NCBI GenBank assembly: GCA_027012135.1
Contig: JALUZF010000233.1
Coordinates: forward strand, 1 to 53,731
Reading direction: 5' to 3'
DNA: 53,731 bases
From: Gammaproteobacteria bacterium
GTDB taxonomy: Bacteria; Pseudomonadota; Gammaproteobacteria; GRL18
Shown: positions 15,720-18,463 of the stretch, piece after piece
Layout: each line of letters begins with the position of its first letter
How positions within the stretch are numbered: position 1 is the stretch's first letter
Made by a program: the position numbers and the translations under genes
The notes under the pieces: model-generated
Told to the model about the DNA's origin: nothing
What the model saw: only the letters and a program-made list of their open reading frames with translations
The model's database searches: none

Positions 15720-16163
15720 GTGACCACCATAAATAAAAGTGCGCTTATTCCTTTTAGTGCAGAAAAAATGTATAACCTGGTCGTGGACGTGGATCTCTAC
15801 GAGGAGTTTTTGCCCTGGTGCGGCAGTTCCAGAGTGTTAAGTCAGACGGAAGATGAGGTAAAGGGACAGATAGAAATCAGCCATACCGGTATGCATAAAA
15901 CCTTTACCACTCTGAATCGAATGCAGAAAAATAAAATGATAGAAATGCGCCTGATTGAAGGTCCTTTTAAACATTTACAGGGCTTCTGGCGTTTTGATGC
16001 ACTGGATGAAAACGGCTGTAAAATCTCCCTGGATCTCGAATTTGAGTTTTCCAATAAACTCATGAGTATGGCTTTCGGCCCTGTGTTCAGTCAGATTGCC
16101 AATAGCATGGTCGATGCTTTCTGTAAACGAGCCTTTGATATCTATGGTCAGGGAGCCGGCTAA
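15720..16163 (+). CDS. ratA: RatA / Coq10-family START-domain protein
   Basis: 147 residues from a GTG start. The family pattern is clear: an N-terminal strand then [17 protein letters not shown], and a C-terminal helix ending in AFDIYG. This START-like fold is called RatA in E. coli and relates to ubiquinone-binding Coq10; whether it acts in quinone handling or on ribosomes is unsettled for the family. Its TAA shares one base with the rnfH ATG (16163), so the two form an operon. Confidence 0.92.
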
Positions 16164-16504
16164 TGGAAAGTGAAATGGTGCTGAATAAGGCACCCAGGAC
16201 AATTATCGTTGAAGTAGCCTACGGCACCCCGGCCAAACAGATAATAGAAACCGTAGAACTGGATGAAGGCTCCACAGTGGAAGACGCCATAAAAGCCTCA
16301 GGCATCCTGCAGGAATTCCCGGAAATTGACCTGACCAAAAATAAAGTCGGCATTTTCAGCAAAATAACCACACTGGACAAGATTCTGGAACACAAAGACC
16401 GGGTAGAAATCTACCGAAAACTGATAGCCGATCCAAAAGAAGTCAGAAAAAAACGAGCCGCAGAAGGCAAGAAAATGAAGAAAGGAGGGGAAGAGCAGCG
16501 CTGA
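16163..16504 (+). CDS. rnfH: RnfH-family ubiquitin-like protein
   Basis: 113 residues. The ubiquitin-like core shows [11 protein letters not shown], a [10 protein letters not shown] helix and [15 protein letters not shown] near the end, which is the RnfH hallmark. A Lys/Glu-rich tail follows ([13 protein letters not shown]). The biochemical role is not established, but the ratA-rnfH pair is conserved in gammaproteobacteria. The gene ends in a GCGCTGAGAAAGAGCC motif that recurs after fur. Confidence 0.92.
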
Positions 16505-16513
16505 GAAAGAGCC
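16498..16513 (+). repeat. 16-base repeat copy 1, at rnfH stop
   Basis: GCGCTGAGAAAGAGCC spans the rnfH stop codon. It is identical to 17947-17962, just after the fur stop codon. Confidence 0.8.
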
Positions 16514-16595
16514 AGCAACTGGATTTATCTTCAAGTAAATACAAAATATTTTAATATTCTGTTTGCCTAAAGGATAAGAGGTTTTAAACTTTTTT

Positions 16596-16679
16596 CTGAA
16601 CGCTGAACGCTGAACGCTGAACGCTGATCGCTGAACGCTGAACGCTGAACGCTGAACGCTGAACGCTGAACGCTGAACG
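16596..16679 (+). repeat. Heptamer tandem array, 12 copies of CTGAACG
   Basis: Twelve contiguous 7-base units run through 84 bases. The fifth unit (16624-16630) is CTGATCG and the rest are identical by eye. The array starts 91 bases after the rnfH stop and ends 6 bases from the bamE stop, so it fills the convergent 3' junction. A 7-base unit makes copy-number slippage easy. Confidence 0.97.
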
Positions 16680-16685
16680 CTGCTC

Positions 16686-17270
16686 TTATTCCCCACTAGT
16701 CTGAGGAGAAGTCTCCAACGTCCCTGGTGCCACTTCCCCCTCACCCCTTGGATTCACCGGTACATCATTATCCTCAGGGATCCCCCTGTGTTCATCTGTC
16801 CAGGCAAAGAAATCAACAAAACGAGCCCAGTAGCCTTTTTCGCCCTGATCTTCTTCCTCGTAATCCTCTATTGGAACCACTACAATTTCAGTACTGCTAT
16901 GGACTTTTTCAGCTTTGTCTCCGGGGCGGAAGGTACCGATAATATTGACCAGACGTCCGTCTTCATTAAAATAAACGGAGGCCTGTTTAAATTCAATATC
17001 ACCATAGCCGGGTTTGAAACGGTAGATATAATCCCAGCGGTCATTGTGGAAGGGATCATCCAGCATCGGGGTGCCCATGACAAAACGTACCTGTTCCCTG
17101 TTCATTCCGGGACGCAGCTGGTTGATCTGATCCTGTTCAATTACATTACCCTGCGGTACATCCACCTTATGAACCCGTGGCAGCCCTATATCAGAAAGAT
17201 CAGGTACCCAGGAACAGGCAGACAGTATCAGAAAAAAGGGGATGAGACCGAGAATAATAATATTTCGCAT
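16686..17270 (-). CDS. bamE: Outer-membrane assembly lipoprotein BamE
   Basis: 194 residues. The lipoprotein signal peptide ends in the lipobox LSAC (Cys19). The BamE/SmpA domain follows (QLRPGMNREQVRFVMGTP, then WDYIYRFKPG, and the strand with FNEDGRLVNI). An acidic, Pro-rich C-terminal tail makes it longer than the ~113-residue E. coli protein. As part of the BAM complex it helps insert beta-barrel proteins. It is divergent from fur across 249 bases. Confidence 0.93.
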   Translation of the reverse strand: MRNIIILGLIPFFLILSACSWVPDLSDIGLPRVHKVDVPQGNVIEQDQINQLRPGMNREQVRFVMGTPMLDDPFHNDRWDYIYRFKPGYGDIEFKQASVYFNEDGRLVNIIGTFRPGDKAEKVHSSTEIVVVPIEDYEEEDQGEKGYWARFVDFFAWTDEHRGIPEDNDVPVNPRGEGEVAPGTLETSPQTSGE

Positions 17271-17357
17271 TGCTATAATGATTTCTTTAATAAATTATGT
17301 ATACTATCAACAGTTAACAGAGGCAGGTTCTCTGTTTAATTGCTGTTTTTCTATAAG

Positions 17358-17393
17358 TTTGATATTAGACTTTTGATATTAACTTTGATATTA
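17358..17393 (+). promoter_or_regulatory. Three direct repeats TTTGATATTA in bamE-fur intergenic region
   Basis: TTTGATATTA occurs at 17358-17367, 17372-17381 and 17384-17393. The copies lie in the 249-base divergent region, 126-162 bases before the fur start. Their A+T-rich GATATTA cores resemble Fur half-sites (GATAAT), which would fit fur autoregulation, but they do not match the 19-base Fur box. Operator function is inference. Confidence 0.45.
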
Positions 17394-17519
17394 AGAGTGC
17401 GATAATACAATATTCTTATACTAAAAGCATCAGTAGATACGTGTTTTAGACTTTCATTGCCTGCCTGTAAACGTATTTAAACGCAGCCTGTATATGTATC
17501 AGATTAAGGATCCTGTTTC

Positions 17520-17939
17520 GTGACAACCATTGATCTTAAAAAAGCCGGCCTTAAAGCAACTCTGCCTCGCCTGAAAATTCTTGAATTACTCGAAAGAGCT
17601 GATGTACGCCATATGAGTGCGGAGGATGTCTATAAAAAACTCCTTGAAATCGGAGAAGACGTCGGCCTGGCAACCGTTTACCGGGTTCTGACCCAGTTTG
17701 AAGGTGCCGGCCTGGTGTCACGCCACCATTTTGAAGGCGGTCACTCGGTTTTTGAACTAAACCAGGGCAACCATCACGACCACCTGGTATGTGTACAATG
17801 CGGCAAGGTGGAAGAGTTTATGGAAGAAACCATTGAAAACTGCCAGCACAAGGTAGCCGAGAAGTTTGGTTATAAAATGACCGATCACAGTCTTTATATT
17901 TATGGCATTTGTCCTGAGTGTCAGAAAGAGCAGGATTAA
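17520..17939 (+). CDS. fur: Ferric uptake regulator Fur
   Basis: 139 residues from a GTG start. The winged helix spans residues ~10-80 (recognition region VGLATVYRVLTQFEGAGLV). The metal sites are visible as HHDH at 85-88, C91-x2-C94 and C131-x2-C134. With Fe2+ it represses iron-uptake genes by binding Fur boxes; feoAB further along this window is a natural target. The bamE-fur-recN order is a conserved gammaproteobacterial arrangement. Confidence 0.97.
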   Translation: MTTIDLKKAGLKATLPRLKILELLERADVRHMSAEDVYKKLLEIGEDVGLATVYRVLTQFEGAGLVSRHHFEGGHSVFELNQGNHHDHLVCVQCGKVEEFMEETIENCQHKVAEKFGYKMTDHSLYIYGICPECQKEQD

Positions 17940-17940
17940 G

Positions 17941-17962
17941 CGCTGAGCGCTGAGAAAGAGCC
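17941..17962 (+). repeat. 16-base repeat copy 2, after fur
   Basis: Two CTGAGCG-like heptamers are followed by GCGCTGAGAAAGAGCC (17947-17962), identical to the motif at the rnfH stop. The heptamer is a one-base variant of the CTGAACG unit of the 16596-16679 array. Confidence 0.75.
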
Positions 17963-18002
17963 TTCGGGAGAGAGGTAAAAATAAGTATCAGGAACAATAC
18001 AA

Positions 18003-18236
18003 ATGGATTTTGAAATAATCGGAGAGCTTAAAAACTCGGAAACTTTTGCCCAGGGTACTGGTATTCGGGAAATTGGTCGTTTGCGTAAACTCTACGGTCA
18101 TGGACACTGGCGTAAACGGAAAGGCATTGCTACAGTTAGGTTAAAAGACGGGACCGAACTGGAAGCAGAACTGCATTGGTATGAAGCCAATGGTGTTGGT
18201 AAACGTGAATTTAAGATTAAACGATATATCGACTGA
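18003..18236 (+). CDS. Unknown 77-residue protein, first of a two-gene module
   Basis: 77 residues with AGGAA 8 bases before the ATG. The protein is compact and basic, with a motif-like middle (IREIGRLRKLYG, then WRKRKGIATVRLKDGTEL) and an end HWYEANGVGKREFKIKRYID. It looks like a small beta-rich fold. No signal peptide or membrane segment is present. I recall similar unnamed proteins in diverse bacteria but cannot name a family. The partner gene starts 11 bases after the stop. A toxin-antitoxin-like or nucleic-acid-binding role is possible but unproven. Confidence 0.7.
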   Translation: MDFEIIGELKNSETFAQGTGIREIGRLRKLYGHGHWRKRKGIATVRLKDGTELEAELHWYEANGVGKREFKIKRYID

Positions 18237-18247
18237 GGAGTTTGGAC

Positions 18248-18463
18248 ATGCGAAAATTTGTTGTTTGTGTCGATAATGAAGGTTATGAAGCATCCCTTGA
18301 AAAACGTAAATTATATGAAGTGGTACCTGACCCTGACGCTTTAAAACATAATCAAATCAGGGTTATCGACGAATCCGGTGAGGATTATTTATTTTCAACG
18401 GACTGTTTTCTGGAAGTGCCTCTGTCAGAAGTCATTGCAGAAAAACTGGCTCATGTTGCATAA
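18248..18463 (+). CDS. Unknown 71-residue protein, second of a two-gene module
   Basis: 71 residues from the ATG at 18248, with GAGGAG well placed upstream; an in-frame TTG at 18242 sits too close to that site. The sequence is acidic (KFVVCVDNEGYEASLEKRKL, then RVIDESGEDYLF and a short helical end). The acidic protein following a basic one is reminiscent of an interacting pair. No named family is recognised. The module lies between fur and recN, which are usually neighbours. Confidence 0.7.
   Translation: MRKFVVCVDNEGYEASLEKRKLYEVVPDPDALKHNQIRVIDESGEDYLFSTDCFLEVPLSEVIAEKLAHVA

Follow-up and report, generated by a model that had tools for sequence, protein, structure and literature searches.

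A CTGAACG heptamer array between rnfH and bamE forms one arm of a dispersed intergenic element specific to its genus

Introduction

REP and BIME sequences are dispersed outside genes as inverted pairs at the 3' ends of genes, frequently between convergent ones; a REP unit is a palindrome and is associated with RAYT transposases. Miniature inverted-repeat transposable elements are small and non-coding and have inverted ends. Intrinsic terminators can be common to convergent genes, with one hairpin serving both. The element described herein resembles REP/BIME sequences in being extragenic, at 3' ends and commonly arranged as inverted pairs. Unlike them, its repeated module is not a palindrome, and the copy-rich congener G019 has no member of the Y1 transposase family, which mobilizes REPs.

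Bacterial heptamer repeats have been little studied and were earlier described at start codons. In marine Beggiatoaceae, TAACTGA heptamers lie mostly just upstream of start codons, with two to six copies in the main genome (MacGregor 2015, PMC4679880). As far as the available part of that source goes, they share with the arrays reported here their short intergenic form, their number per genome, an orientation bound to the gene and a sporadic presence across distant phyla. Placement at start codons is absent for the array and modules studied here, and it was found for three other arrays of the same genome, in the leaders of der, a TraB-family gene and a DUF2333 gene. The differences are the unit itself, a position that is mostly behind stop codons, the fixed AAGAGCAG and AAAGAGC edges, the inverted pairs, a core with a putative promoter and a unit differing between species. 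The GGGAATC and GGGGA(T/C)T heptamers of Xanthomonas and Nostoc are G-rich and were proposed to form quadruplexes (Rehm 2015, PMC4692102). In the part of that report available, they too are intergenic tandem arrays, are present in a gammaproteobacterial genus, vary in length among close relatives and include some inverted pairs; in contrast to them, CTGAACG has no G run. Within the available parts of the two sources, neither set of heptamers comes with modules at stop codons, arms in inverted orientation or a core with a promoter, and the literature searched held no description of the element or its arrays. The class of heptamer repeats is hereby extended to stop codons.

The array and its element in the rnfH-bamE gap

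We analyzed a stretch of 53,731 nucleotides (the window), contig JALUZF010000233.1 of the gammaproteobacterial assembly GCA_027012135.1 (genome G000). A first-pass annotation had reported a nearly perfect 12-copy CTGAACG array of 84 bases between convergent rnfH and bamE. The array is present at that place with a single imperfect unit, and the gene calls (made with a longest-ORF script) and Pfam matches bore out the convergent neighbors. The features of the gap are as follows.

16163-16504, + strand: rnfH (Pfam Ub-RnfH)
16491-16512, + strand: left, rnfH-side module, made of AAGAGCAG (16491-16498), CGCTGAG (16499-16505) and AAAGAGC (16506-16512)
16506-16595, + strand: core A, of 90 bp, the portion of the element that is dispersed; its AAAGAGC edge is common to the left module
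16563-16590, + strand: weakened promoter-like pair of core A, TTGCCT (16563-16568), a 16-nt spacer and TAAACT (16585-16590)
16596-16679, + strand: CTGAACG array of 12 units, (CGTTCAG)12 in the bamE sense, beginning 5 nt past the -10-like hexamer
16680-16687, + strand: outer flank CTGCTCTT, which in the bamE sense reads AAGAGCAG and begins inside the bamE stop codon TAA (16686-16688)
16686-17270, - strand: bamE (Pfam BamE), convergent with rnfH

The 12 units run head to tail, and only unit 5 (16624-16630) departs from CTGAACG, reading CTGATCG. Tandem Repeats Finder called the array at 16596-16682, with 12.4 copies and 97% matches. A two-unit CTGAACG pattern with at most three mismatches occurred 23 times in the window, compared with 2.97 +/- 1.55 times (largest 8) in 100 dinucleotide-preserving shuffles, indicating that the array is not a product of chance. 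The array had been said to abut the bamE stop codon; it does lie close, but strictly 6 bp of the outer flank separate the two. On the other side, the rnfH stop codon TGA (16502-16504) falls within the heptamer of the left module.

The array makes up the bamE-side arm of a longer element, about 190 bp in length (16491-16687), with the layout AAGAGCAG-(CGYTSAG)1-4-AAAGAGC, a core of about 85 bp, and (CTSAACG)n-CTGCTCTT. The annotation had suggested that the array might be a scar of a repeat family, which was right and understated. The two-unit pattern gave 53 matches in the own genome and none when read backwards. These matches make up 13 arrays on 11 contigs, and the genome also holds 47 modules. 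The annotation had set its idea against the case of a constant copy number with no other array in the genome, and the 13 arrays found are not that case.

Distribution of the element in the genus

A query of 111 bases (16490-16600), most of it to the left of the array, detected 11 further places in the own genome and 52 in five congeners at E <= 0.01. Ten copies in the own genome, including that of the window, span most of the query, one spans 68 bases and one 40; an element count of 11 for this genome thus leaves out the 40-base match and includes 10 copies near full length. Long core A matches were found in four of the five congeners (G019, G020, G022 and G023), with short pieces only in G021. 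From the 64 core matches in the genus, 45 loci entered the copy table (G000, 11 of 12; G019, 7 of 11; G020, 13 of 16; G023, 13 of 14; G022, 1 of 8; G021, 0 of 3; the omitted ones were mostly short), and 43 copies from five genomes passed the length filter and gave the core A consensus. Because of assembly fragmentation, with arrays at many contig ends, all element and array counts are lower bounds. Judging by identical match coordinates, G019, G020 and G014 appear to correspond to the public MAGs Gamma1-221, 134-614 bin 015 and SY_S20_27.

At the family level, three-unit matches were obtained in 7 of 24 genomes and in five of the six genus members, the own genome included; G021 had none, and the backward control had none. 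Among 299 Pseudomonadota genomes, (CTGAACG)3 occurred in the own genome only. The array is one arm of a dispersed intergenic element that is specific to this genus.

Modules at stop codons

The part shared by the loci is a module of the form stop-AAGAGCAG-(CGYTSAG)n-AAAGAGC. Its inner half, GCTCTTTCTNARCNCT, was found 47 times in the own genome and not once in the backward control; the pattern search of this genome matched the left module of the window at 16497-16512. Across 369 gammaproteobacterial genomes, the module occurred in 8, with 47 matches in the own genome, 26 in one congener and 1-3 in each of six others. The backward-control pattern gave one match in each of 10 of the 369 genomes, indicating that the module is at chance level outside the genus. 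By eye, no module was seen in 14 rnfH-bamE gaps of other genera. The annotation had also mentioned a related heptamer after fur. It is real, and it belongs to a module of the same family as the element of the array.

17940-17961, + strand: second module of the window, GCGCTGAGCGCTGAGAAAGAGC directly after the fur stop codon, with two CGCTGAG-type units and AAAGAGC

In G019, G020 and G023, the fur-recN gap carries a whole copy of core A (ortholog group L206/L172/L341). The fur-recN gap of the window has the fur-side module only, together with two small open reading frames at 18003-18236 (77 aa) and 18242-18463 (73 aa).

We examined the position of 106 distinct modules from loci of the six genus members. 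Eighty-five adjoined a same-strand stop codon only, 3 adjoined stops on both strands and 2 an opposite-strand stop only, in search windows that were not quite symmetric, the sense-stop window being the wider. The remaining 16 adjoined neither, and 6 of these stood at locus ends. By gap type, 44 modules were in convergent gaps, 24 in tandem gaps in the gene sense and 6 in tandem gaps in antisense, and 32 were not placeable; none of the 74 placeable modules lay between divergent genes. The distance from module to stop codon had a median of 13 nt and was within 60 nt in 63 of 68 cases. In the own-genome loci, the gaps of 60-600 bp without a module comprised 38 tandem, 22 divergent and 3 convergent ones. 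What had looked like a curious microsatellite is a 3'-end element found across the genus and strictly positioned, whose core can be exchanged and probably bears a promoter and whose unit varies from species to species.

The inverted repeats of convergent gaps arise because each of the facing genes bears its own module in the gene sense. Several modules in tandem gaps, that after fur among them, stand without an inverted partner, indicating that the module is first of all a feature of a single gene. The edges AAGAGCAG and AAAGAGC are direct, not inverted, and the module is not a palindrome. In addition, an ordinary intrinsic terminator follows the module at some genes (contigs C289 and C94), so the module is not required as a terminator.

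TTAACAC (CTTAACA) heptamer arrays stand beside CTGAACG arrays with the same GCTCTTT edge (L150, L074, L100, L104 and others), suggesting that several types of unit make up the module chain. A role as stop-codon insurance in all frames was considered and rejected; it suits CTC- and CTT-type units in the gene sense, but not the CTG type. Rho loading on the antisense strand was weighed as another conceivable role.

Turnover of units and cores

For the comparison of unit types, core A copies were selected by their core and not by their heptamer. The right arrays were of the CTG type in 5 of the 6 G019 copies with an array and in all 10 G020 copies. They were of the CTC type in 10 of 11 G000 copies, the copy of the window being the lone exception, and in G023 (n = 13) the third base was C in 9, T in 3 and G in 1. 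We found 13 groups of core A copies (two or more loci each) in matching gene neighborhoods, yet units and counts differed within them. One orthologous group contained CTCAATG x5, CTGAACG x15 and CTCAACG x14, and copies at orthologous places ranged from 5 to 17 units at the species level. Five G019 arrays have exactly 17 units (119 nt; L162, L163, L168, L194 and L334), which is probably an assembly (k-mer) limit and not biology, short-read assemblies being unreliable for long arrays.

The cores turn over as well. The rnfH-bamE gap of G020 and of G023 holds another core, flanked by modules of the same kind and with 4 and 5 CTGAACG units, respectively, and a G019 contig shows the right end of that same core. 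Core identity was 79.0% for orthologous pairs (30 pairs, one of which is two loci of one genome, G020), 78.8% for same-genome pairs (175) and 78.3% for other pairs (536); this comparison used 39 copies, after removal of four that had additional sequence or a disrupted core. Since orthologous cores are no more alike than others and the rnfH-bamE core differs in G020 and G023, the data point to core exchange between places. The annotation had expected copy number to change freely by slippage. This expectation stood as far as change between species goes, in the rnfH-bamE gap and in the der leader (8 versus 12 units).

Arm matching, folding and proposed role

We next compared the arms of each element, with one row per left arm (57 tracts). 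The majority third base of the left and right arms agreed in 46 of the 57 tracts, compared with 36.7 expected within genomes, and 2 of 20,000 permutations reached 46. The agreement came largely with G023, where 13 of 14 tracts matched (6.4 expected; 5 of 20,000 within-genome permutations reached it); without G023 it was weak (33 of 43, 30.3 expected, reached by 1,396 of 20,000 permutations). The arms of the window element are mismatched, with C on the left and G on the right (CTCAGCG versus CTGAACG types).

Predicted folding varied widely between copies. The window element folded no better than its shuffles (z 0.15), and the rnfH-bamE gap alone gave a fold z of +2.2. No terminator-like site was called in the window copy, where no stable stem with a U run was found; in the predicted fold, the outer flank CTGCTCTT pairs with AAGAGCAG of the left module. 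Two loci chosen as short, evidently symmetric pairs behaved differently: L294, a short convergent or facing module pair, had a fold z of -10.7, and L308 had a z of -8.0, its stem being followed by six U in a row, as in an intrinsic terminator. Among 18 genomes, the rnfH-bamE gap reached a fold z of -3 or below in 9, from very different sequences, and about half were without a strong fold. The strongly folding gaps include some of the sister genus with unrelated palindromes or octamer arrays. At L274 (G015) and L284 (G006), the palindrome AGACGTTGCATGCAACGTCT or a close form of it fills the gap, probably as a separate dispersed repeat.

Building on the anatomy, position rule, unit turnover and core exchange described above, the explanation we favor, to which we give about an even chance, is that the genus-specific 3'-end inverted repeat serves as a two-way transcript-end hairpin whose arms expand by slippage. 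Replication slippage would add and remove heptamer units. Cores would be swapped, and units homogenized within a genome, by ectopic recombination or by gene conversion between arms. In transcripts from either of the facing genes, the arms would pair with each other, and the resulting hairpin may act in transcript end formation or protection and as a barrier to antisense read-through. The annotation had proposed that the array may act on the 3' ends of both transcripts; the stop-codon lock of the modules is consistent with this part of its reading. The window copy would then be a partly decayed example, in which the outer AAGAGCAGCG/CGCTGCTCTT stem holds most of the pairing that is left. The hairpin leaves the partnerless modules of tandem gaps unexplained, and the ordinary terminators past some modules and the poor folding of the window copy also count against it.

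Such an element would resemble a shared intrinsic terminator in that the hairpin is placed to serve both genes, and at L308 a U run follows the long stem. The differences are that slippage-prone heptamer arrays make up its arms and that, at several genes, a separate terminator lies past the module. Should pairing of the arms be required, the genus would show, as an experiment of nature, how inverted repeats stay matched during growth by slippage.

Alternative explanations

The rival that survives best holds that slippage-born heptamers are simply tolerated in 3' gaps, with orientation and arm matching left over from ancestral seeding plus recombination, and that the element has no function. 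We regard this as unlikely, though well within consideration. It agrees with the over-representation of heptamers among bacterial simple sequence repeats noted, after a 2007 study, in the available part of one source (PMC4692102), with the variation of unit counts between relatives, with the lack of a special fold in the window copy and with the sporadic occurrence of the CTGAACG heptamer in other phyla and other contexts. In the sister genus, moreover, unrelated octamer arrays occupy the same gap next to the bamE stop codon, ACTTACAA x6 in G005 (L277) and ACTTACCA x3 in G001 (L281), suggesting that one place grows different tandem arrays. However, tolerance alone does not give 85 sense versus 2 antisense modules, or 24 versus 6 in tandem gaps, because most modules begin after the stop codon and are free of coding constraint. 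The -35 and -10 boxes of core A also argue against it, as they are still recognizable where the rest of the core drifts.

Those boxes bear on a second alternative, in which promoters would start (CUGAACG)n or (CUCAACG)n RNAs at the first heptamer and these RNAs would pair in trans with the 3'-UTR modules of many mRNAs. Core A has the order AAAATATTTTAAT..TTTTGC-TTGACT-N16-TANANT-N5-6-array. The pattern TTG(A/G)(C/T)N-N15-18-TAN(A/G)NT is present in 37 of the 43 core A copies and in none of their reverse complements, and shuffles average 1.2. The spacer is 16 nt in 34 copies, and the array begins 5-6 nt past the -10 box in 29. From these sequences, the commonest core is predicted to bear a sigma-70-like promoter; a start 5-9 nt past the -10 box would hit the first bases of the array, making the first heptamer the predicted start. 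The window copy falls outside the 37, being one base off in the -35 box of the consensus TTGACT-N16-TANANT, and its promoter-like pair was not listed by a promoter scan at a 9-of-12 threshold.

Arrays also follow unrelated promoter-like sequences in leaders, which would favor transcription of the repeats. In the der leader, a CTGAACG array behind a promoter-like pair has 8 units in G000 (L152:2450-2505) and 12 in G023 (L369); G022 has about 3 CTTAACG-like units and G021 a trace, and no such array was seen by eye in 16 der leaders from other genera. Together with those of the DUF2333 gene and the TraB-family gene, these leader arrays lie 17-34 nt upstream of the start codon. Of 54 in-genus arrays, mostly core A copies and excluding those after a GCTCTTT-type edge, 34 had a promoter-like pair within 9 nt, compared with 3.5% of random positions, which are largely coding. 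The species-specific unit types of core A (CTG in G019 and G020; CTC in G000 and mainly in G023) are likewise in line with pairing in trans. On the other hand, the arms match within the element in G023, which points to local and not genome-wide matching. Outside the genus, promoter linkage of arrays was found in 2 of 53 cases against a baseline of 2.3%; promoter linkage as a general rule is not supported there, and this lack of enrichment also speaks against array RNAs. Finally, no Rfam covariance model matched at E <= 1 in 16150-18100, which rejects a known RNA family and is a further point against this alternative. We consider it improbable, and find it just as hard to credit a repeat-coded RNA network. 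In such a network, strong promoters starting right at the arrays would make short repetitive RNAs, these would pair with complementary modules behind the stop codons of dozens of genes, and each species would have changed its code (CTGAACG, CTCAACG or CTTAACA) jointly on both sides. If transcription does start from promoters of the arrays themselves, they would offer repeat RNAs with complementarity to many 3' UTRs, a case open to direct testing.

It is equally doubtful that the element is a MITE-like mobile element, with a transposase acting in trans and the modules as its terminal inverted repeats. Like miniature inverted-repeat transposable elements, it has inverted modules at both ends, and it is about 190 bp long, intergenic and dispersed, with an AT-rich core; the window also has the whole element in a gap where three congeners carry another core. 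However, modules also occur singly and in the gene sense, and a terminal repeat would not be bound to stop codons. No target-site duplication was seen by eye; the gaps of other genera were too diverged to serve as empty sites. A search with PF01797 (Y1) found no cognate transposase: G019, which is 99% complete and has 11 core matches, gave 0 matches, so mobility driven by RAYT is rejected and the many copies in this genome count against the broader idea. A phage or plasmid origin was likewise dismissed, as no related copy was present in the phages and plasmids searched and no module-like pattern in the viral contigs.

CTGAACG arrays in other phyla

In a collection of 84,980 species, a 28-base CTGAACG pattern matched more than 115 stretches in many phyla, with 80 loci among the matches listed. 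The idea of one mobile heptamer crossing phyla is weakened by the contexts elsewhere, which are without the promoter and, save in family members, without the GCTCTTT edge, and by the restriction of (CTGAACG)3 to one of the 299 Pseudomonadota genomes. In Sulfurovum (L036, L055, L070 and L107), some CTGAACG arrays lie 0-7 bp from a stop codon and are antisense to that gene, which they have in common with those of the present genus, with flanks that differ.
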